IMG/VR virus record: IMGVR_UViG_3300006802_000471
Span: 1-26,351 of that record
Reading direction: 5' to 3' (one strand)
Origin: a virus
DNA length: 26,351 nt
The position numbers and the translations under genes are program-made. The notes beneath the pieces are model-generated. The model was not told where the DNA came from. It saw only the letters and a list, made by a program, of their open reading frames with translations, and did no database searches. This document shows positions 4,426 through 16,777 of the stretch, piece by piece. How positions within the stretch are numbered: position 1 is the stretch's first letter; each line of letters starts with the position of its first letter.

Positions 4426-4841
4426 CCACTATCGCCGCAGATCCTGTGACTGGCGTAATCGCCTACGAGTCAAGGATTACCCGCGGCGACTATATTCTTG
4501 ATGACGATTGCGACAAATGTGTCATAAGGGACGGAATAGCATTCTTCGTCGCTGGTGACGTGGCCCACGAGCAGCAGTTCATCGACCAATACCCAGACGG
4601 CAAGATTGATAAACACGCTGACCTAGACGCATTCGTTGTTATCGACGGGCAAGTAAACCTTGCTGGCGTTGAGGAAGGCCGCATCTGGTCAATGCCCCTG
4701 AACAAGCCTTACGCAATCGGCGTAGGTGGCCCAATCGCTGTTGGCGCAATGGCTTACGGCGCATCAGTTGAAGACGCTGTGCAGATTGCCATTGACCACA
4801 CTCAATCATCTGGCGGCAAGGTCAGGACATTCAAGCTATAA
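4422..4841 (+). CDS. Proteasome/HslV-like Ntn hydrolase
   Basis: This 139-residue protein resembles phage proteins of the proteasome beta/HslV fold, a threonine-nucleophile amidohydrolase. It begins MTTIAAD, so removal of Met would expose Thr as in HslV. Aligned by eye to HslV, the catalytic Asp17 position is Glu (E16 in AYESRIT) and Lys33 corresponds to K32 (CDKC). The GSGGP loop appears as GVGGP near residues 100-104, followed by the helix AVGAMAYGASVEDAVQIAI and a closing GGKVRTF. Phage members are about this length. Start is GTG 4422, with AAGGGA upstream and a GTGA overlap. It is the last gene of the lysis-side operon and ends 11 bases inside a convergent gene. Its substrate is unknown, and the Asp-to-Glu change could alter activity. 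Confidence 0.75.
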   Translation: MTTIAADPVTGVIAYESRITRGDYILDDDCDKCVIRDGIAFFVAGDVAHEQQFIDQYPDGKIDKHADLDAFVVIDGQVNLAGVEEGRIWSMPLNKPYAIGVGGPIAVGAMAYGASVEDAVQIAIDHTQSSGGKVRTFKL

Positions 4842-5019
4842 ACGATTGACCGAGCTTGTGAAGAAACAACTCCCATACAGCGGGATCCATGTCTCTGTCA
4901 CCAGCTTCCCACTTCTGCCAAGCATTTAAGGTCTTATAAACCATCAGCGCAGCCTGGGATTGGGTAAGGCCCGCATTAGCACGGGCCGCCTTGATTTGTT
5001 CGGGTGTTGGGGATTTCAT
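4831..5019 (-). CDS. Xre-like helix-turn-helix regulator
   Basis: This 62-residue leftward protein has a compact Xre/Cro-type fold: IKAARANAGLTQSQAALMVY (about residues 9-28) gives helices 1 and 2. TLNAWQKWEAGDRDMD (about 30-45) is the recognition helix and following turn, and PAVWELFLHKLG is a final helix. Short proteins of this type (PTPEQIKAAR...GLTQ.QAA...W..WE.G.R.M) are common in phages and prophages of Proteobacteria and are presumed DNA-binding repressors. It is the last gene of a three-gene leftward group and overlaps the rightward Ntn hydrolase gene tail to tail by 11 bases. The candidate operator at 5721-5741 is an obvious target to consider, but nothing proves it. Confidence 0.8.
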   Translation of the reverse strand: MKSPTPEQIKAARANAGLTQSQAALMVYKTLNAWQKWEAGDRDMDPAVWELFLHKLGQSFIA

Positions 5020-5066: not shown

Positions 5067-5480
5067 TTACTTTTCGCAAGCGTCTGAATATGCGCGGGCT
5101 ACTTCTTCGGCAATAAACCATGCCAGAGCATTAAGCACCTGCTCGGAATTGTCGGAGTCGTTATAGATTGCCTCTGCTACTTCTGATTGGCTGTAATCGC
5201 CATTTAAGCAGTTAAAGCCCGCGATCATTTCAAGCGCGCCAGATTGTCCGAATTCTTTTGCCATTTCTTCTGCGTAATCCATGATTGCCTTGCGGTGCTT
5301 TTTGGCGAATTCCACAGTATCTGTGTAGTAGATGAAACCGTGAAAGCCTCCATCTATGCCGTGGTTTGCGATGTCGATGGCTGACTCCTTGAATGATTCA
5401 GCGCCTCCAAGTTGTATTACTACTGCGTCAATCAGTGTCTCGCTGATGTTTGATTGTGCTTTGAATGTTGAAATCTTCAT
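5067..5480 (-). CDS. Hypothetical protein, DUF7222-like
   Basis: This 137-residue leftward protein is acidic and largely helical. Conserved-looking blocks are LGGAESFKESAIDIANHGIDGG (residues 24-45, broken here by context), GFIYYTDTVEF (about 48-58), MDYAEEMAKEFG and ALAWFIAEEVARAYSD at the end. These match my memory of a phage/plasmid family catalogued as DUF7222, whose function is unknown. The start is supported by AGGAGA 7 bases upstream of the ATG at 5480, one of the better ribosome binding sites in the leftward block. No membrane span or catalytic motif is evident. It is separated from its neighbours by about 50 bases on each side and probably shares one transcript with them. Confidence 0.65.
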   Translation of the reverse strand: MKISTFKAQSNISETLIDAVVIQLGGAESFKESAIDIANHGIDGGFHGFIYYTDTVEFAKKHRKAIMDYAEEMAKEFGQSGALEMIAGFNCLNGDYSQSEVAEAIYNDSDNSEQVLNALAWFIAEEVARAYSDACEK

Positions 5481-6739: not shown

Positions 6740-7198
6740 ATGGCATGGGACGGCCCTCCCGGCAGTAACGGCGCTCCGAAGGGGAATAAGAACCAGTCCT
6801 CTGGAAAGCCTTGGAAGGACGCTATCAATCGAGCCCTCACGAAGAAGGGTAAGTGTGAGCAGGCTGAAGAACTTTACCTGATCGCTCGTGAGGTTGTTGA
6901 GGCGGCACAGGATAGAACAGACCCTAATTTTGCAATGGCGGTGAAGGAGGTTGGTTTACGACTTGATGGAAAGCCAACTGAGCACATCGCGCTTGAGGGA
7001 AATACTTCCCAAGCACTTATCGGAATATCCGCAGCTTTTGCTTCGCTTGTCCGAATTACCAACAGCGGAGAGGTTATCGACGGAGAGATTATTATGCCGG
7101 ATCGATCTTTACTTTCTTCTGAGATATGCGTTGAAGCGGAAGGACTTGGAGAGGGAGTGGATCTTCCAAAGGTGTCGGGAGGTTCAGGAGAACCCTAA
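6740..7198 (+). CDS. Terminase small subunit (putative)
   Basis: This 152-residue protein would recognise the packaging site and direct the large terminase to it. The N-terminus (GPPGSNGAPKGNKNQSSG) is a flexible basic KGN-type segment often seen in small terminases of this group. A helical part follows, ending in EVGLRLDGKPTEHIALEG (about residues 71-88), where the RLDGKP block is typical of these proteins. Start is ATG 6740 with AGGTGA seven bases upstream. Position directly before the large terminase is the other argument. The last third (from about residue 77) is encoded in the same DNA as the large terminase N-terminus in another frame, an unusually long overlap, so the true C-terminus deserves a check. 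Confidence 0.7.
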   Translation: MAWDGPPGSNGAPKGNKNQSSGKPWKDAINRALTKKGKCEQAEELYLIAREVVEAAQDRTDPNFAMAVKEVGLRLDGKPTEHIALEGNTSQALIGISAAFASLVRITNSGEVIDGEIIMPDRSLLSSEICVEAEGLGEGVDLPKVSGGSGEP

Positions 7199-8519
7199 CG
7201 GTCGGATTGATATCTGGGCGCGTGAACATTACAAGTCCACGATTATCACTTTTGGCAAGAACATTCAGGACATTCTCGCGAGTCATGGGGAAGACCCTTT
7301 GCCTGAGTGGAATGGTCGAGAAGTCACGATAGGTATCTTTTCGTTCAACCGTCCTGCTGCGAAGAAGTTTCTAAGACAGATCAAAGTTGAGTTCGAGGAC
7401 AACCAAGAACTTAAACTTTTATTCCCCGATGTGTTGTATCAAAACCCTCGCAAGGAGTCCTCCAAGTGGTCGGACGATGAGGGGTTGGTAGTAAAACGAA
7501 AATCCAACCCTCGCGAGGCGACAATTGAAGCCTCTGGTTTGGTGGATGGTCAGCCTACGGGGATGCACTACGTCATCAGGTCTTATGACGACGTGGTGAC
7601 TCTTGAATCTGCCCGTTCGGTAGAGATGATCAAGAAAACCACCCAGGCATGGGGCTTGAGTCTTTCCCTCGGCACTGAGGGCGGGTTTGACCGTTACGCC
7701 GGGACTTTTTACGCCGACGGGGATACTTACTCAGACATTATTGAAAGGGGTGGGGCAATTCCCAGAATCCACCCAGCGACGGATAACGGACTTTCCACCG
7801 GGGAGCCTGTTTTATTTTCTAAAGAGTATTTGGATTCTAAAAAGTTCGCCGGGATTTATGACTTTTCTTGTCAGTATTTATGCGACCCCATCCCCGATGA
7901 GAACGCCTACTTCACGAAAGACGATTTCCAGTGGTACGACAAGCCCCCTGAGCATTTAAGGCGCTACGGCGCTTCAGACTACGCTGTGAGCGAGGGTAAG
8001 GGCGACTTCACCGAATTGGGAGTTTGCGGGGTCTCCTCTGATGATCATATCTACATTTTAGATTGGTGGTCGGGTCAAACCACGGCAGATGTGTGGATAG
8101 ACCGTCAAATCGACTTATGCAAAAAGCACAAGCCTACAAAGTGGGCCTCGGAAGCTGGAGTTATCCGAAGGGCCACAGAACCGTTTCTCTTAAAACGAAT
8201 GAGAGAGCGGAAAGAATACTTCACGATGGAATGGTTTCCAGCCATTTCCGACAAAGCAGCAAACTGCAAATCCTTTCAAGCACGAGCAAAGATGGGGATG
8301 GTTCACCTTCCCCGAACTGATTGGGCGCAAGACCTTGTTGCCCAACTCCTCCGATTTCCGAAAAGCCGCCACGACGACAAAGTCGATGTGTGTGGTTTGT
8401 TCGGTCGGATGCTGGACGGGATGCACGGCGCATTTGCACCAAGCGAACCCAAATTGAGACTGGTTTCTGATTCCTACGGCTTTACCGAGGAAGCGGAACA
8501 GGAATGGAAAACGGCATGA
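6966..8519 (+). CDS. Terminase large subunit
   Basis: This 517-residue protein is the packaging ATPase and headful or cos nuclease. Residues below count from ATG 6966. The family N-terminus IDLYFLLRYAL is at 46-56. A degenerate Walker A-like AREHYKST is at 85-92 (WAREHYKSTIITF), Walker B SYDDVV is at 206-211, and a conserved SGLVDGQPTG block precedes it. Nuclease acidic residues are D338 (GASDYAVS), E396 (ASEAG) and D471/D474 (RHDDKVDV). TTG 6951 would add five residues, but GGAGG lies directly against it. ATG 6966 lies 15 bases after GGAGG, also imperfect. Because IDLYFLLRY belongs to the family core, the real start must lie upstream of about 7090, inside the small-subunit frame. Confidence 0.92.
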   Translation: MESQLSTSRLREILPKHLSEYPQLLLRLSELPTAERLSTERLLCRIDLYFLLRYALKRKDLEREWIFQRCREVQENPNGRIDIWAREHYKSTIITFGKNIQDILASHGEDPLPEWNGREVTIGIFSFNRPAAKKFLRQIKVEFEDNQELKLLFPDVLYQNPRKESSKWSDDEGLVVKRKSNPREATIEASGLVDGQPTGMHYVIRSYDDVVTLESARSVEMIKKTTQAWGLSLSLGTEGGFDRYAGTFYADGDTYSDIIERGGAIPRIHPATDNGLSTGEPVLFSKEYLDSKKFAGIYDFSCQYLCDPIPDENAYFTKDDFQWYDKPPEHLRRYGASDYAVSEGKGDFTELGVCGVSSDDHIYILDWWSGQTTADVWIDRQIDLCKKHKPTKWASEAGVIRRATEPFLLKRMRERKEYFTMEWFPAISDKAANCKSFQARAKMGMVHLPRTDWAQDLVAQLLRFPKSRHDDKVDVCGLFGRMLDGMHGAFAPSEPKLRLVSDSYGFTEEAEQEWKTA

Positions 8520-11166: not shown

Positions 11167-12327
11167 ATGACATCAGCAACAATCAATTCGGGTAATAAAA
11201 CTACCCGATTCCAGAAAGAAGTCCGACGCGAATACGTTCGTGACGGCGTTTACGGAGATGCGATCGGCAACGATATCAACTCCATCATCCAGACAAACAA
11301 GAACCTGAAGAAAATCTCCATCCCTCTCGTCGGCAAAGTCGGCGGGGCTGGTGTAACTGGTTCTTCGCAATTGTCCGGTAGTGAGCAGCCACTCTCTAAC
11401 TACGCTCAAACAATGCAACCGACGTATTACCGTCAGGGTGTTTTGGTTGATAACGAAGAAAACGAGCTGGCTGAATTTGATCTGTTCCAAGAAGCACGTC
11501 CTGCCCTGATGGATTGGGCGATGGAGCTTAAGCGCGACCAGATCACTCAGGCGCTCGGCGCAATTGAGGCAGGTGGTACGTATTACAACTACGGTGGTAC
11601 TGGTGGTGCTTACGGCGCAACTGCTGCTTCTGCGACCAACCTGGACACGTGGAACACCAACAACGCTGACCGCATTATCTACGGTAAGACGATCAGCAAC
11701 TACTCCGCTGGCGACCACACAGCCTCGCTTTTGAACATTGACACCACCAACGACAAGATGACCGCAGCACTGGTCACTCTTGCCAAGCGTCGTGCCAATC
11801 TCGCGCGTCCGAAGATTCGCCCTGTGAAACTCGGTCGAAACAAATCTGCTGTTTACGTCATGTATATCGGTAGTTTTGGTTTCCGCGATCTGAAGCAAGA
11901 CTCCACTATCGCTCAGGCTAACCGTGAAGCGCGTCCTCGTGATGTGAAAGAAAACCCCATCTTTGCTGATGGCGATCTTTTCTACGATGGCGTGATCATC
12001 AAAGAAGTCTGTGATATGGACGTGTTCATTGACGGCGGCGATGCTTCAAACCCGTATTCCGGTGTTTGGGGTGCTGGCGCTGCTGGTGACAGCCTTGCAA
12101 CAGGTGGTAACGGTGGTACTCGCGTAGGTGTTGCGTTCCTGTGTGGCGCTCAAGCGGTGGCCTTTGTTATGGGTCGCAATGCTGAGTTCAAGCGTCGCAA
12201 GGAAGACGATTACGAGCATCTGAACGGTGTTGCTGTTTCTATGAAGCACGACATAAAGAAGACGTTCTACAACAACAAGCAGCACGGCATGGTTACTGTC
12301 TTCCATTCAGCCTCGGCTGATGCGTAA
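11167..12327 (+). CDS. Major capsid protein (N4-gp56/DUF4043-like)
   Basis: This 386-residue protein builds the capsid shell. The N-terminal third (FQKEVRREYVRDGVY, ISIPLVGKVGGAGVTG, GSEQPLSNYAQTM) and the helix EARPALMDWAMELKRDQITQALG match the N4-gp56/DUF4043 group, which has the HK97 fold. So do RDLKQDSTIAQANREARPRDVKENPIF, near residue 240, and the closing MKHDIKKTFYNNKQHGMVTV (each shown only as a landmark). The insertion GGTYYNYGGTGGAYGATAAS around residues 137-156 is a Gly/Tyr-rich loop. It starts 12 bases after the scaffold stop with GAGG upstream. Note that the coat is of a different family from the classic P22 gp5, while portal and hub are P22-like. Confidence 0.88.
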   Translation: MTSATINSGNKTTRFQKEVRREYVRDGVYGDAIGNDINSIIQTNKNLKKISIPLVGKVGGAGVTGSSQLSGSEQPLSNYAQTMQPTYYRQGVLVDNEENELAEFDLFQEARPALMDWAMELKRDQITQALGAIEAGGTYYNYGGTGGAYGATAASATNLDTWNTNNADRIIYGKTISNYSAGDHTASLLNIDTTNDKMTAALVTLAKRRANLARPKIRPVKLGRNKSAVYVMYIGSFGFRDLKQDSTIAQANREARPRDVKENPIFADGDLFYDGVIIKEVCDMDVFIDGGDASNPYSGVWGAGAAGDSLATGGNGGTRVGVAFLCGAQAVAFVMGRNAEFKRRKEDDYEHLNGVAVSMKHDIKKTFYNNKQHGMVTVFHSASADA

Positions 12328-12336
12328 GGAGGGCTT

Positions 12337-12624
12337 ATGGCTAGTAATAGACCACTTCCCGGTGATTTAACCGTCACCGGGCAAGACCAAGCCTCGCTTA
12401 ATGCTTGGCAAGGTAATGTGACCGATCTCACGAACGAGCTTCAATCAGACCACGCAACTAACATTGCCGTGATTGCTGCATTGAAAACCGCCGTGAACGC
12501 GATCATTACCGCCGCCGCCGCAACTGGCGCAGCAATTGGAGACATTGGAGCAGTTACCTCTGTGACAGCATCTCCAGCCGCGTCACTTTCCAACTCAACA
12601 GCACTCACGCTTTTAAGGAGCTAA
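12337..12624 (+). CDS. Small Ala/Thr-rich head-associated protein
   Basis: This 95-residue protein follows the coat gene after only nine bases and has a very strong ribosome binding site (AAGGAGGG), pointing to high expression. It is rich in Ala, Thr, Ser and Asn, with a likely helix (QSDHATNIAVIAALKTAVNAIITAAAATGAAIGDIGA) in its second half and no charged core. Highly expressed small genes after the coat are often decoration or head-joining proteins. No domain can be named. Its last codons contain AAGGAG, the ribosome binding site for the next gene. Confidence 0.6.
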   Translation: MASNRPLPGDLTVTGQDQASLNAWQGNVTDLTNELQSDHATNIAVIAALKTAVNAIITAAAATGAAIGDIGAVTSVTASPAASLSNSTALTLLRS

Positions 12625-12625
12625 C

Positions 12626-13111
12626 ATGGCTGATTTAACTTATACAGGCACTGGAACCTTTAGGCGTGCAAACACAACCACGCTTGGTAAGGGTGACGCT
12701 GGTAGTGTCAAAAACTTCACCTCGGTGATTGAAATTGCCGCTGGTGCAACGGTCGGTCAAACATGGAAGATTGGCCGGATTCCCTCTAACGCCCGACTCA
12801 CAGGTTCTTGTGAGCTTTATTGGGACGATGTTAGTACAGCATCGCCTGATTTTGACATCGGCCTTGCCTCAGTAAATGGCAATATCACTTCCGACCCCGA
12901 CGCAGTAAACGACGGTCTGGACGCGGGTACTGCTTCTGCTGGTGTGAAGATGATTAAAACCATCGACAACATCGGCAAACAGGCTTGGGAATATGTCAAC
13001 GGGCAAACAACAGATCCGGGCGGTGAGCTTGATCTGTATGTGAGCAACACTGTAGCAACGATAGACGACGGCGGCACTTTGGTTGCTGACGTTTATTACA
13101 CGCTTGACTAA
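12626..13111 (+). CDS. Probable capsid decoration-type protein
   Basis: This 161-residue protein is almost entirely predicted beta strand. Landmarks are SVIEIAAGATVGQTWKIGRIP (about 34-54), ARLTGSCELYWDDVSTASPDFDIGLA (about 57-82), ITSDPDAVNDGLDAGTAS and GGELDLYVSNTVATIDDGGTLVADVYY. The IPSNARLTGSxxLYWDD...DFDIGL pattern recurs in phage proteins located directly after the coat gene and is consistent with a jelly-roll-like cement or accessory head protein. Start ATG 12626 has AAGGAG nine bases upstream. The radical SAM frame begins inside its last 29 bases. Confidence 0.6.
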   Translation: MADLTYTGTGTFRRANTTTLGKGDAGSVKNFTSVIEIAAGATVGQTWKIGRIPSNARLTGSCELYWDDVSTASPDFDIGLASVNGNITSDPDAVNDGLDAGTASAGVKMIKTIDNIGKQAWEYVNGQTTDPGGELDLYVSNTVATIDDGGTLVADVYYTLD

Positions 13112-14051
13112 CCTCGCAACAAGGATACGGGCCGTAGAGATACGGCCCCGACTTCTCCAACACCCAGAAGTTAGGTACGAAGTAACAGATAACTGCAACG
13201 CCAATTGCATTATGTGCCCTCGGGACAAGCACGACAGACCCCACGGCATAATGAATCAGGAAGATTACGAAAGGTCGATTGACGAAGTCGTTAATTTGGG
13301 AGCGGAGCAAGTCACCCTCACAGGGTTTGGCGAGCCTTTGCTTGATAAGAATCTCGAAAAGAAAGTGGCCTACGCCAAATCCAAAGGGCTTAGGACTTAT
13401 TTCATTACCAACGGCTCCCTATTAAGGGCCAGAGCGGAAAAGCTCGCAGAAAGCGGCTTGGACGAACTTAGAATCAGCTTTTACGGTATGTCCGCTTTGA
13501 CATACGACGCTGTAATGCGCGGCCTCCATTTTGAAAAGACGATGGAGGGAATTCACAAGTTTTTAAGGGTGAGGAAGGGGACGAAAGTCCAACTGTCCTA
13601 CCTTCAGTTTGACAACAACGAGCCCTATCAAGAGTTCTTGGATTACTGGGAGCCTCTTGTTGACTATGTTGAGGTTTGGAAGCCCCACAACTTCGGAGAC
13701 GGTCGAGACTACCGACTCAGGGAGGGGGTGAAAAAGTCCTGTGGTAGACCAAAATCAGGCCCGCTCCAGATTCAATGGGACGGCACGGTAATCCCTTGTT
13801 GTTATGACTACAACAACGAGATTGTTTTGGGGAACGCCTTCAGGACTCCGGTTATGAGCGTCCTTCACGGGAGTGCTTACAACGACCTCAGAGAAGCGCA
13901 CGAGACCGGACAGTTTGAGAGATTCCCTTACTGTGATCAGTGCGACCAGCTTTTAGAACATTCTGATTCACTTCTTTACACGAACCGTCACAACCTCCCA
14001 AAGAGCGAGGCGGTGAAACTTTCCAACACAGACTTATCGAGGCTTTCTTGA
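13083..14051 (+). CDS. Radical SAM enzyme with SPASM-type C-terminus
   Basis: This protein of about 322 residues would cleave S-adenosylmethionine with a [4Fe-4S] cluster to start radical chemistry. The cluster motif is C38-NAN-C42-IM-C45 (CxxxCxxC), preceded by RYEVTDN. TGFGEPLL (80-87) is the GGE-like SAM site. Later elements are YFITNGSLL (106-114) and DELRISFYGM (127-136). The C-terminal part has C220, IQWDGTVIPCC (C239, C240), NAF and C284/C287 (YCDQC), the layout of a SPASM/twitch auxiliary-cluster domain found in peptide- and sugar-modifying enzymes. There is no ATG: TTG 13083 and TTG 13104 are the possible starts, both overlapping the preceding gene. It shares a TTGA overlap with the next gene. 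Its substrate is unknown; no precursor-like peptide gene is adjacent. Confidence 0.88.
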   Translation: MLTFITRLTNLATRIRAVEIRPRLLQHPEVRYEVTDNCNANCIMCPRDKHDRPHGIMNQEDYERSIDEVVNLGAEQVTLTGFGEPLLDKNLEKKVAYAKSKGLRTYFITNGSLLRARAEKLAESGLDELRISFYGMSALTYDAVMRGLHFEKTMEGIHKFLRVRKGTKVQLSYLQFDNNEPYQEFLDYWEPLVDYVEVWKPHNFGDGRDYRLREGVKKSCGRPKSGPLQIQWDGTVIPCCYDYNNEIVLGNAFRTPVMSVLHGSAYNDLREAHETGQFERFPYCDQCDQLLEHSDSLLYTNRHNLPKSEAVKLSNTDLSRLS

Positions 14052-14794
14052 AACGAATTGCAATCGTAGGCGGTACGAAATCGTGGGTAGACGCTCCTTA
14101 TGAAGATAAATCATGGGAGATTTGGGTAATAGGAAATCAGGTTCAGCAATACGACCACAAACGGGTGGATCTGATCTTTGAGATACACAATGACTTTTCC
14201 AACAGAGTGGAAGGGTACGCACAGTGGTTGGCTGATTTCAAATTCCCGATGGTAGTGGGTGAAGGGTTTCCCTGTAAGAACGAATTAACCGAAGTGTTCG
14301 ACTTCAATAAAGCGCGTGAAATGATGTCGGGGGATTACCTGACTTCAACTCCGTCTTACATGGTCGCCTATGCGCTGTATTCCAGACCAGACCTTGAGGA
14401 AATAGGTTTCTGGGGCGTGGATATGGCAGTAGATGACACTGAGTATTTCTACGAGCAGCCCTGTGTCCAACGGTGGATAGGTTTCTGTAGAGGAAGGGGG
14501 ATAAAAATCACTCTCCCTGATGGCTGTCCTTTGGGTGAGCCGCATTACATGGAAGGGGTGACTGCGAACAAACCAGAACCCCAACACCCGTATTCAGAGC
14601 AAGACTTTTTAGCAATGGCGAAACGCCACGCCGATAAGGTCGCACAGATCGACGCGGAATTGTTCACCCTCCAATTAAAGAAAGCCGCACATGACGGGGC
14701 TCGTCAGTGCTATCAAAAACTCTCCCAAGTGGGCAGGGCTACCGATGCCGGGCAGCAGTTCGGTGAGTTAATTCAAACGATGAGGACTTTATGA
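14048..14794 (+). CDS. Rossmann-like phage protein (DUF115/MptE-like)
   Basis: This 248-residue protein begins with a Rossmann-like start, RIAIVGGTKSWVDAPYEDKSWEIWVIGN (shown as a landmark, residues 3-30, in which VGGTKS and WVIGN are key). The second half has YLTSTPSYMVAYAL (98-111) and EIGFWGVDMA (about 118-127). EYFYEQPCVQRWIGFCRGRGIKITLP follows, read in parts as YxxQPxxxxWIGxxRGRGI. This pattern is a widespread phage family near head genes, thought to be related to DUF115/6-hydroxymethylpterin pyrophosphokinase MptE or sialyltransferase-like folds, so it may bind a nucleotide or nucleotide-sugar. The last 70 residues are a charged coiled helix. Start is TTG 14048, overlapping the radical SAM stop, which suggests coupled expression of the two. 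Confidence 0.65.
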   Translation: MKRIAIVGGTKSWVDAPYEDKSWEIWVIGNQVQQYDHKRVDLIFEIHNDFSNRVEGYAQWLADFKFPMVVGEGFPCKNELTEVFDFNKAREMMSGDYLTSTPSYMVAYALYSRPDLEEIGFWGVDMAVDDTEYFYEQPCVQRWIGFCRGRGIKITLPDGCPLGEPHYMEGVTANKPEPQHPYSEQDFLAMAKRHADKVAQIDAELFTLQLKKAAHDGARQCYQKLSQVGRATDAGQQFGELIQTMRTL

Positions 14795-15003
14795 AATTCC
14801 AATATGTAGGTTTTGGGGAATCCCCGCCTGTAACGATCAACTACATGAGCAAATTCGAGTTCACGCTGAACGGCCCCGCTGTTGATGTCACGGACAAAGA
14901 AGTGCTCGCAAAGATCGTTGGGCACAGTTGCTTTAAATGCGTGAGCGAAGAAAAAACAGAAGCGCCAAAGAAAATGGGTCGTCCTAAAAAGGTTGCCGAT
15001 TAA
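14791..15003 (+). CDS. Small protein with AT-hook-like basic tail
   Basis: This 70-residue protein starts with an ATGA overlap to the upstream gene. The first 50 residues look like one small beta domain (FQYVGFGESPPVTINYMSKFEFTLNG..., key residues G7, P13 and the CFKC pair near 48-51). The C-terminus EAPKKMGRPKKVAD carries a GRPKK motif like an AT hook, which binds the minor groove. Small proteins with this tail are common between head and connector genes of tailed phages. A role at the DNA-containing head-tail junction is plausible but unproven. Confidence 0.55.
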   Translation: MKFQYVGFGESPPVTINYMSKFEFTLNGPAVDVTDKEVLAKIVGHSCFKCVSEEKTEAPKKMGRPKKVAD

Positions 15004-15005
15004 CA

Positions 15006-15359
15006 GTGGCAACACTCGCCCAAGTCCGAAACACGGCTGCTGGCTTACTGGGTCGGCACACGCCAGGTCAGGCCATTAACAATGCCCTCCTGATTGAGCT
15101 AAACCTCTGCTATGACCGCGTGTATGCGCGTCTAAAAGCAAAGCGGCTGAATACGTGGTCGAGTGCGGCGAATACCGTCATTCCCGACGAGGTAGCCGAT
15201 CAGGTTGCAGCGATGATGGCGTTTTCCGCAACGGGCCAGTTTGCCGTTTCTGAGGAAAAGATGAACCGCATTCGGGAGAAGAACCGCACGGCAATTTCGG
15301 AAATCATGGATGTTGTGAATCCAAAATACGATTCTTTGGACTCTCCAGAAGACTTCTAG
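15006..15359 (+). CDS. Head-tail connector, P22 gp4-like (putative)
   Basis: This 117-residue helical protein starts at GTG 15006, two bases after the previous stop. It sits directly before the gp10-like hub, the place of P22 gp4, which binds the portal ring and closes the head. Its helix-rich pattern (ATLAQVRNTAAGLLGR, NNALLIELNLCYDRVYARLKAK, VADQVAAMMAFSATGQFAVSEEKMNRI) fits the helical-bundle adaptors of this group. The middle IPDEVADQVAAMMAFS segment is the equivalent of the conserved LAPxxxxALAxxLA helix in gp4-type proteins. A one-base TAGTG overlap links it to the hub gene. Identification is by fold pattern and gene order, not by a firm motif. Confidence 0.6.
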   Translation: MATLAQVRNTAAGLLGRHTPGQAINNALLIELNLCYDRVYARLKAKRLNTWSSAANTVIPDEVADQVAAMMAFSATGQFAVSEEKMNRIREKNRTAISEIMDVVNPKYDSLDSPEDF

Positions 15360-16777
15360 TGGCCTACTTACCCGTAAGACTTGCAGGTGGCACTCACAGG
15401 CACACCGACTTGAGCCTGTCCGCACAAAGGACGATTAACTTCTTTCCACAACATCAGGAAGCGGGGAATGAAAAGTCTCCCTTTGTTCTTGAGTCGTTCT
15501 ACGGATTGAAGTCTTTCGCAAGTGGGACAGGACTTGATAGGGGCATGTTTGAGCACCTTGGAGTGCTCTACAAGCTCTCTGGGACAACCTTGTACTCTGT
15601 GTCCTCTGCTGGCGCTCTAACGTCTCTAGGGACGATACCGGGCGACTCACGCGCAGTCTTCGACGGGCTTGGCTCCAGTGTCGTAATTACGGCTGACGGT
15701 GTGGCGTATGAGTGGGATGGAGCAACATTAACAGCAGGAACAGACCCCGACTTTGAAACGCCCAACACAGTAACGGTCATTAACAACCAAGCCATTTATG
15801 ACGGCGGCGGGACTAATGGTAGGTTTGTGGTTTCTGACGTGGGCCTTCCGCTTGATCTAAACGCATTGAATTACGGAACCGCTGAGTCAAAGGCTGATGC
15901 CTTGATTCGCCCCTTCGCCTTGGGGACGGTGGTTTATATGTTCGGAAGCAAAACCATTGAACAATGGTGGAACAACGGAACCGGAAACCCGCCATTCCAG
16001 AGAATTGAAGACGGCACAATCGCCGTTGGTCTTGGGGCGCAAAACTCCATTGCGAACGATGACGAGTTTATCTACTTCTTCGGAGACGATAACCAAGTTT
16101 ATTTGTTAAACAGCACCGTCCCGACTCCTCTATTCCCCCTGACCATCGTTCGCGAGATTAGAAAGTTCTCCGTCAAATCTGACGCGATTGGCTGGACGAT
16201 GCAAATAGACGGACAGTGGTTTTACGTCCTGAAGTTCCCAACAGCAGACCGGACATTTGTTTACCCAAGAGGGATTAGGCGAGACGTTTTGGGTGAGGTG
16301 TTTGAACTTTCCTCTGGAGTGGACGGTGGAAGGTATCTGGGAAACAGCTACGCCTTCGCTTTTAACAAGCATCTAGTCGCTGACGAGTCTGGAAACATTC
16401 TTGAGCTTGACGAGGACACCTACACCGAGAACGGCGAGGTGATACGCAGAACGCGAACGATGGCCCCGATTCATGGCGGCTTGTTTGGAAAGCCCGGAAA
16501 AGAGATTGAGATAAGCACCTTTAGGCTTATTGGCGCTACGGGAAAAGGACTTACCTCTGGTCAGGGCTCAGATCCCGAAGTGATTCTCCAGTTCTCCCAA
16601 GACGGCGAAAACTTCTCCACAGAGATTCGCGGAGACGTGGGACGACTTGGGGTTAAGACAGTGATTGATTTTGAGATAGGCCAGTCTTTCGAGACGTGGG
16701 TATTCAGGATCACATCAACAGACCCCGTGTATTCAAATTGGCACTCTGCCGGAATCGAGGCTTGGATAGGAACATAA
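15359..16777 (+). CDS. P22 gp10-like DNA stabilization/tail hub protein
   Basis: This 472-residue beta-rich protein resembles P22 gp10, the hub below the portal that stabilises packaged DNA and anchors tail parts. Landmarks are QRTINFFPQ (23-31), the LYKLSGTTLYSV strand pair (about 70-81), YEWDGATLT (about 116-124) and the characteristic FGSKTIEQWW (about 193-202). Also present are FIYFFGDDNQVYLL and a C-terminal QFSQDGENFS...WVFRITSTDP beta domain. Repeated four-strand units are consistent with the beta-propeller fold of this family. Length is the same as P22 gp10 (472). It begins at GTG 15359 overlapping the preceding TAG. The next gene starts immediately after its stop. Confidence 0.82.
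   Translation: MAYLPVRLAGGTHRHTDLSLSAQRTINFFPQHQEAGNEKSPFVLESFYGLKSFASGTGLDRGMFEHLGVLYKLSGTTLYSVSSAGALTSLGTIPGDSRAVFDGLGSSVVITADGVAYEWDGATLTAGTDPDFETPNTVTVINNQAIYDGGGTNGRFVVSDVGLPLDLNALNYGTAESKADALIRPFALGTVVYMFGSKTIEQWWNNGTGNPPFQRIEDGTIAVGLGAQNSIANDDEFIYFFGDDNQVYLLNSTVPTPLFPLTIVREIRKFSVKSDAIGWTMQIDGQWFYVLKFPTADRTFVYPRGIRRDVLGEVFELSSGVDGGRYLGNSYAFAFNKHLVADESGNILELDEDTYTENGEVIRRTRTMAPIHGGLFGKPGKEIEISTFRLIGATGKGLTSGQGSDPEVILQFSQDGENFSTEIRGDVGRLGVKTVIDFEIGQSFETWVFRITSTDPVYSNWHSAGIEAWIGT

Follow-up and report, generated by a model that had tools for sequence, protein, structure and literature searches.

A Twitch-type radical SAM enzyme encoded in an exchangeable head cassette suggests that a phage chemically decorates its own shell

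Radical SAM enzymes of the type considered here are oxygen-sensitive and best known for sugar oxidation. The SPASM domain is an extended C-terminal domain, usually with seven cysteine residues and two auxiliary clusters. Its shortened form, the Twitch domain, holds one auxiliary cluster, bound by four cysteine ligands in BtrN, an enzyme whose reaction is a two-electron oxidation (PMC9012708). Sugar-type modification of phage head proteins is already known for the mycobacteriophage capsid and tail tube, as Freeman 2023 is cited in PMC12619734, and the hypervariable host-recognition region of pelagimyophages carries radical SAM genes alongside glycosyltransferase genes (PMC7029224). No description of a radical SAM enzyme in a phage head cassette was found in the literature searched, a search of partial coverage and weak as evidence. 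The locus described here would resemble the mycobacteriophage system in being a phage-encoded, sugar-type head modification; the enzymes of that system are reportedly ordinary glycosyltransferases, and the papers found mention no radical SAM step.

The window, i.e. the whole stretch of DNA that was analysed, spans the 26,351 bases of a viral record. A 36,636-base contig is a longer record of the same phage, and its copies of the radical SAM gene (rSAM) and of the following gene for a Rossmann-type protein (ROSS) are 100% identical to those of the window. Upon re-reading of the sequence, the coordinates, the frames, the cysteine residues, the GFGEP motif, the TTGA overlap and the ROSS motifs (VGGTKS, WVIGN and GFWGVDMA) were all found as given in the original prediction. 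The rSAM gene is intact and overlaps ROSS, which begins at TTG 14048 on the rSAM stop codon (TTGA), and both lie within a P22-like head operon (Table 1). The podophage-type character of this operon, also predicted, is supported by the neighbours found with Pfam and PHROG, i.e. a P22-like portal, a Phage_capsid_3 capsid protein and the head closure protein Hc3. The protein encoded by g6 contains 22% Ser+Thr and 21% Ala and is a candidate decoration protein and acceptor with a putative location on the virion, and g7 is divergent or missing in the closest cassette-free phages.

Table 1. Features of the head operon around rSAM and ROSS in the window.
Feature	Position	Strand	Remarks
Major capsid protein (Phage_capsid_3), survey anchor	11167..12327	+	Pfam, PHROG
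g6: small Ser/Thr/Ala-rich protein, directly 3' of the capsid gene	12337..12624	+	In sister phages only alongside ROSS
g7: probable structural component of the virion, flanked by g6 and rSAM	12626..13111	+	Weak PHROG 8455 match
rSAM: Twitch-domain radical SAM enzyme, predicted BtrN-type fold	13083..14051	+	CxxxCxxC C38/C42/C45; GFGEP 81-85; predicted Twitch ligands C220, C239, C284, C287
ROSS: Rossmann-type, TPK/DUF115 (MptE-like) fold weakly predicted	14048..14794	+	Weak profile likeness to GT42 sialyltransferases; TTG start
g8: small conserved protein	14791..15003	+	Shared with phages that have neither rSAM nor ROSS
g9: conserved gene of the head-tail region, marks the right-hand limit of the variable slot	15006..15359	+	Locus comparison
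Head closure protein Hc3	15359..16777	+	PHROG 578

Counted from TTG 13083, rSAM has 322 amino acids and its complete set of cysteines comprises residues 38, 42, 45, 220, 239, 240, 284 and 287. Members of the radical SAM superfamily have a [4Fe-4S]-binding CxxxCxxC motif within a partial TIM barrel, together with a GGE-like SAM motif. The rSAM protein belongs to them by its CxxxCxxC motif, a GGE-like motif (GFGEP), a Pfam Radical_SAM match above cut-off (PF04055, E 1.2e-20) and the radical SAM fold of its structural model. Such matches are well outside what chance would give; other viral contigs encode rSAM proteins 65-72% identical to it, and C38, C42, C45, G83, E84, C220, C239, C284 and C287 are invariant in 39/39 aligned homologues, while C240 is an extra cysteine that varies among these 39 relatives. 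Most of the close phage relatives start near residue 23-25 (MLQHPEV...), and the only in-frame ATG, GTG or TTG codons of the window upstream of this point are TTG 13083 and TTG 13104; residues 1 to about 22 are therefore unsupported, and the start codon, TTG 13083 or 13104, is uncertain. The model has a pLDDT of approximately 50 over the first 20 residues.

The auxiliary domain had been labelled SPASM, and the Pfam SPASM family (PF13186) matches rSAM above cut-off (E 4.4e-13), in a region confined to the part common to SPASM and Twitch. By profile, BtrN ranks first among solved relatives (E 1.5e-28, both domains covered), and the alignment falls into two stretches, one over the radical SAM part and another that places C220, C239, C284 and C287, spaced by 19, 45 and 3 in the window protein, on BtrN cysteines. 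Because these residues coincide with the BtrN ligands, four in number, and C240 is left over, the auxiliary domain is, on this alignment, a single-cluster Twitch domain with a predicted cluster, and the earlier label has to be replaced. A full SPASM assignment was rejected, as the C-terminal domain has only five cysteines, of which four are invariant, and the alignment fits the BtrN Twitch domain. The AlphaFold2 model of rSAM is confident (mean pLDDT 91.9, pTM 0.89) and presents an intact cluster site, as had been expected, in a BtrN fold. Its top Foldseek match is 4m7t, BtrN with substrate (E 1.5e-13, TMt 0.77), followed by BlsE (E 1.9e-11), and the list also contains SpeY ("Twitch Radical SAM Dehydrogenase"), SuiB, anSME, EpeE, viperin and MoaA.

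BtrN, from butirosin biosynthesis (PDB 4M7T), shares with rSAM the two-domain fold, the CxxxCxxC motif and four Twitch cysteines of near-identical spacing. However, the two proteins are only 22% identical and rSAM lies in a phage head operon; no aminocyclitol pathway genes were seen around it in the window. BlsE, a cytosylglucuronate decarboxylase whose substrate is a nucleoside-linked sugar, resembles rSAM by fold, but the NCBIfam BlsE model scores rSAM at 55.7 against a cut-off of 400 and the gene context differs. By analogy with BtrN, an aminocyclitol dehydrogenase, a BtrN-like oxidation would be the default expectation for rSAM, and we consider a sugar to be its likely substrate.

The remaining fold matches allow other substrates to be considered. 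Viperin and MoaA would be compatible with nucleic-acid or nucleotide chemistry, in the form of DNA hypermodification or of a viperin-like nucleotide product, but viperin has to our knowledge no Twitch cluster, unlike rSAM, and rSAM is located among head genes and not replication genes, which makes this reading very improbable. The records of the window phage, of the rSAM-positive phage L228 and of L208 yielded no thymidylate-synthase-type gene, and DNA hypermodification was rejected on these three records. SuiB, anSME and EpeE act as models for a direct protein modification, in which rSAM would epimerise a virion protein or cross-link it by C-C or thioether bonds and ROSS would serve as chaperone or carrier; the location in the head operon and the adjoining g6 and g7 as potential substrates are in keeping with it. 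Against this, the top matches by both profile and fold act on small carbohydrate-like molecules, the auxiliary domain is Twitch and not SPASM, Pfam and NCBIfam searches revealed no peptide-recognition domain at the N terminus of rSAM, the neighbour g8 is kept in phages without rSAM, and the partner genes in other phages are of glycan type, so that we regard a protein substrate as improbable. Since g8 is present without rSAM and ROSS, it is not the rSAM precursor peptide, and a RiPP system built on g8 was rejected.

ROSS gave no match in Pfam, NCBIfam or PHROG at the thresholds used, and its earlier DUF115/MptE-like label was therefore tested by fold. The model is confident (pLDDT 91.3, pTM 0.73) and ends in a long C-terminal helix (residues 184-233). 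Its best PDB folds are thiamine pyrophosphokinases (TPKs), with probabilities of 0.99-1.00, yet a weak E of 4.4e-3 and TM of about 0.4, and its top viral fold matches include a DUF115 model (E 1.2e-4). The model thus points weakly to a DUF115/MptE-type fold. The family part of the label did not hold, as ROSS does not match PF01973 (DUF115, MptE-like) and Pfam stayed silent up to E 1; ROSS also differs from MptE-like/DUF115 proteins in its long C-terminal helix and its phage head setting. A 53-row ROSS profile yielded ten weak hits, mostly GT42 sialyltransferases, the best at E 0.023 over about 40 residues. The likeness to the GT42 alpha-2,3-sialyltransferases (CstI/CstII) consists of these weak profile matches, centred on a short S/T-S..YM.A.A..G..EI...G.D motif. 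The ROSS family is large in viral contigs (125 confirmed hits, of which 80 were kept), and beyond the podophages at least 32 of 58 loci with distant relatives have capsid, portal, scaffold, adaptor or terminase genes close by, a tally made with ten probe families only and including some near-duplicate loci.

The linkage of these genes was surveyed in sister phages. As the capsid protein was the anchor, the survey is blind to rSAM and ROSS; it gave 80 loci, from which two duplicates were removed, and 63 had a scorable slot. ROSS is present at 29 of the 63 loci, and the slot ahead of it is occupied by rSAM (4), by a class I methyltransferase (6) or by an HNH gene, or is empty. The rSAM or methyltransferase gene always occurs with ROSS (10/0 vs 19/34 at the remaining 53 loci, Fisher 1.6e-4), g6 occurs exclusively with ROSS (8/0 vs 21/34, Fisher 1.1e-3), and among the ROSS-positive loci g6 is found at 4/4 with rSAM vs 4/25 others (Fisher 2.9e-3), kinship being ignored in the three tests. 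Some loci have g6 without rSAM and some have ROSS without g6. On the capsid tree, the minimum number of changes is 13 for ROSS, 4 for rSAM, 6 for the methyltransferase and 4 for g6. The podophage rSAM proteins form one clade. The informative tree-based independent pairs are all concordant (enzyme-ROSS 3.6 to 0 on average), with 3-7 pairs, which is below significance. In the closest capsid relatives, L205-L208 (85-89% identical), g6, rSAM and ROSS are all absent. In L208, g8 begins within about 46 bases after the capsid gene, and a search of its whole 36.8-kb record gave no rSAM or ROSS match.

rSAM and ROSS co-occur in four sister phages (L014, L015, L016 and L017), as predicted, but the fixed two-gene module that had been proposed was rejected, rSAM being absent from most ROSS loci. 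The resident partner is ROSS, ahead of which two SAM-dependent enzymes, rSAM among them, can replace each other. Because the methyltransferase takes the place of rSAM in sister phages, it is the tailoring step that can be exchanged, with ROSS retained. The g6 gene probably belongs to the cassette, and its co-occurrence with rSAM would be compatible with a protein substrate. The data show the Twitch radical SAM enzyme to be part of a head cassette that can be swapped, and to be tied to ROSS.

Such a patchy occurrence, together with the lack of the entire cassette in close relatives, would also be expected of passenger genes, a moron pair held in the head operon with no virion role. We judge this to be improbable, as rSAM and ROSS are under sequence constraint, occupy an equivalent location in unrelated head modules, show a conserved association of rSAM with ROSS or its equivalent, and share the composition of the remaining operon (GC 0.49). 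The constraint is purifying, with pN/pS values of 0.11-0.27 for rSAM and 0.12-0.30 for ROSS and with dS saturated.

Two further features of the slot were observed. In one sister locus the class I methyltransferase and ROSS are fused in frame into a protein of 455 amino acids (L051:4383-5747). HNH/AP2 endonuclease genes stand between rSAM and ROSS or ahead of ROSS (L014:5468-5953, L061:4519-5001), which suggests that the slot is a target of homing endonucleases, possibly aiding the mobility of the cassette.

Outside the podophages, rSAM proteins 63-69% identical to that of the window are found in HK97-type phages (portal PHROG 12, protease PHROG 80, capsid PHROG 10), between the capsid gene and a gp6-like head-tail adaptor. 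Their neighbours are an MptE/alpha-2,3-sialyltransferase-like protein (PHROG 4603), an FkbM methyltransferase, a glycosyltransferase (PHROG 1962) and a weakly matched sulfotransferase, to which L006 adds a GT8 and a nucleotide-sugar epimerase. Pairing with a different MptE/sialyltransferase-like protein in these phages again departs from a fixed module. Homology of ROSS to this partner was rejected, and because their profile comparison gave a probability of 22.5% over 35 columns, the two are similar in kind and not orthologues. In a third head type (portal PHROG 1216, capsid PHROG 1328), an rSAM about 35-38% identical lies 3' of the capsid gene, often with methyltransferases and once with a ROSS relative. 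Additionally, tandem rSAM gene pairs occur in the viral contigs L028, L029, L031 and L039, accompanied in L028 by an aminotransferase and a GT34-type glycosyltransferase; these may be a second kind of rSAM cassette, of putative phage origin.

Cellular homologues 58-65% identical, with an additional N-terminal stretch, were found in Betaproteobacteria, Methylophilaceae and others, often within polysaccharide-type clusters. In L125, the bacterial gene is surrounded by RmlD-like, Polysacc_synt_2, DegT and NeuB genes, and among 81 tallied neighbours of the bacterial homologues the glycosyltransferase 9 family leads, GT2, GT1, methyltransferases and epimerases being present too. In the tree, the bacterial clade emerges among phage rows, but a single phage clade is not rejected (AU p 0.24), so that transfer from host to phage and from phage to host would both fit. 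Downstream of the bacterial rSAM in L125, L127, L129 and L133 lies a protein of about 550-580 amino acids, a recurrent partner with 23 members in the clustering, which in L125 has no Pfam match. In Methanolobus (L175:5561-7983), the rSAM homologue comes after genes that by eye resemble, in their N-terminal parts, KDO-8-phosphate synthase, arabinose-5-phosphate isomerase and a KdsC-type phosphatase, so that ulosonic acids may be its class of substrate.

That the nearest cellular homologues sit in surface-glycan-type clusters would suit a modification of the host surface, the pair altering, at a late stage of infection, a glycan of the host such as LPS or capsule and, for instance, blocking superinfection or re-adsorption of progeny; pelagimyophage glycosyltransferases have been interpreted as O-chain modifiers (PMC7029224). 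We consider this unlikely, since rSAM lies inside the late head operon of three unrelated head types, ROSS relatives are head-linked in many further phages, rSAM and ROSS are missing jointly with g6, a putative head gene, and the podophage slot has no membrane, flippase or acyltransferase gene.

The virion is in our estimate the probable target, and a virion or sugar modification, as in the original prediction, remains the best reading of the Twitch/BtrN likeness, the head operon and the glycan-type partners. We tentatively propose, with nearly even confidence, that g6, g7, rSAM and ROSS form a swappable cassette for virion decoration. Its enzymatic part would be rSAM, oxidising or epimerising the carbon of a sugar, and ROSS, handling the group or transferring it. 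The [4Fe-4S] cluster at C38/C42/C45 would be reduced and SAM cleaved to yield the 5'-deoxyadenosyl radical, which would take a hydrogen from a sugar-like carbon, and the second electron would pass to the Twitch cluster held by C220, C239, C284 and C287, a scheme put forward for BtrN. Overall, the reaction would most likely be a dehydrogenation (alcohol to ketone) or an epimerisation of a sugar or sugar-nucleotide. The 36.6-kb record of the window phage yielded no sugar-nucleotide epimerase, so that the donor, an activated sugar, would have to be supplied by the host. ROSS would then handle the modified group or transfer it onto a head-surface protein, for which g6 (or g7) is the best acceptor candidate; sugar substrate, reaction, transfer by ROSS and acceptor are what we infer from the likenesses and gene linkage above.

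If true, phages tailor their own shells by radical chemistry, which would bring an enzyme class new to the virion-glycosylation literature found and would assign a role to ROSS and its relatives, a large family of head-operon proteins that lacks annotation. Capsids 85-89% identical with and without the cassette would be a natural experiment, and a test bed for the roles of head decoration in receptor-independent adhesion, particle stability and escape from recognition by host or grazer. A more general and more doubtful extension is a new class of head decoration, composed of a resident DUF115/GT42-like transferase, an exchangeable SAM-dependent enzyme (Twitch dehydrogenase or methyltransferase) and a dedicated Ser/Thr/Ala-rich acceptor, giving a coat of oxidised or unusual sugars.

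Elsewhere in the window, two minus-strand open reading frames (4831-5019 and 5067-5480) stand amid a plus-strand genome, the first being helix-turn-helix-like by eye and a possible regulator. The mechanical TerL call (6951-8519, from TTG 6951) overlaps the preceding open reading frame (6740-7198) by about 250 bases, and the true TerL start is probably downstream of TTG 6951.
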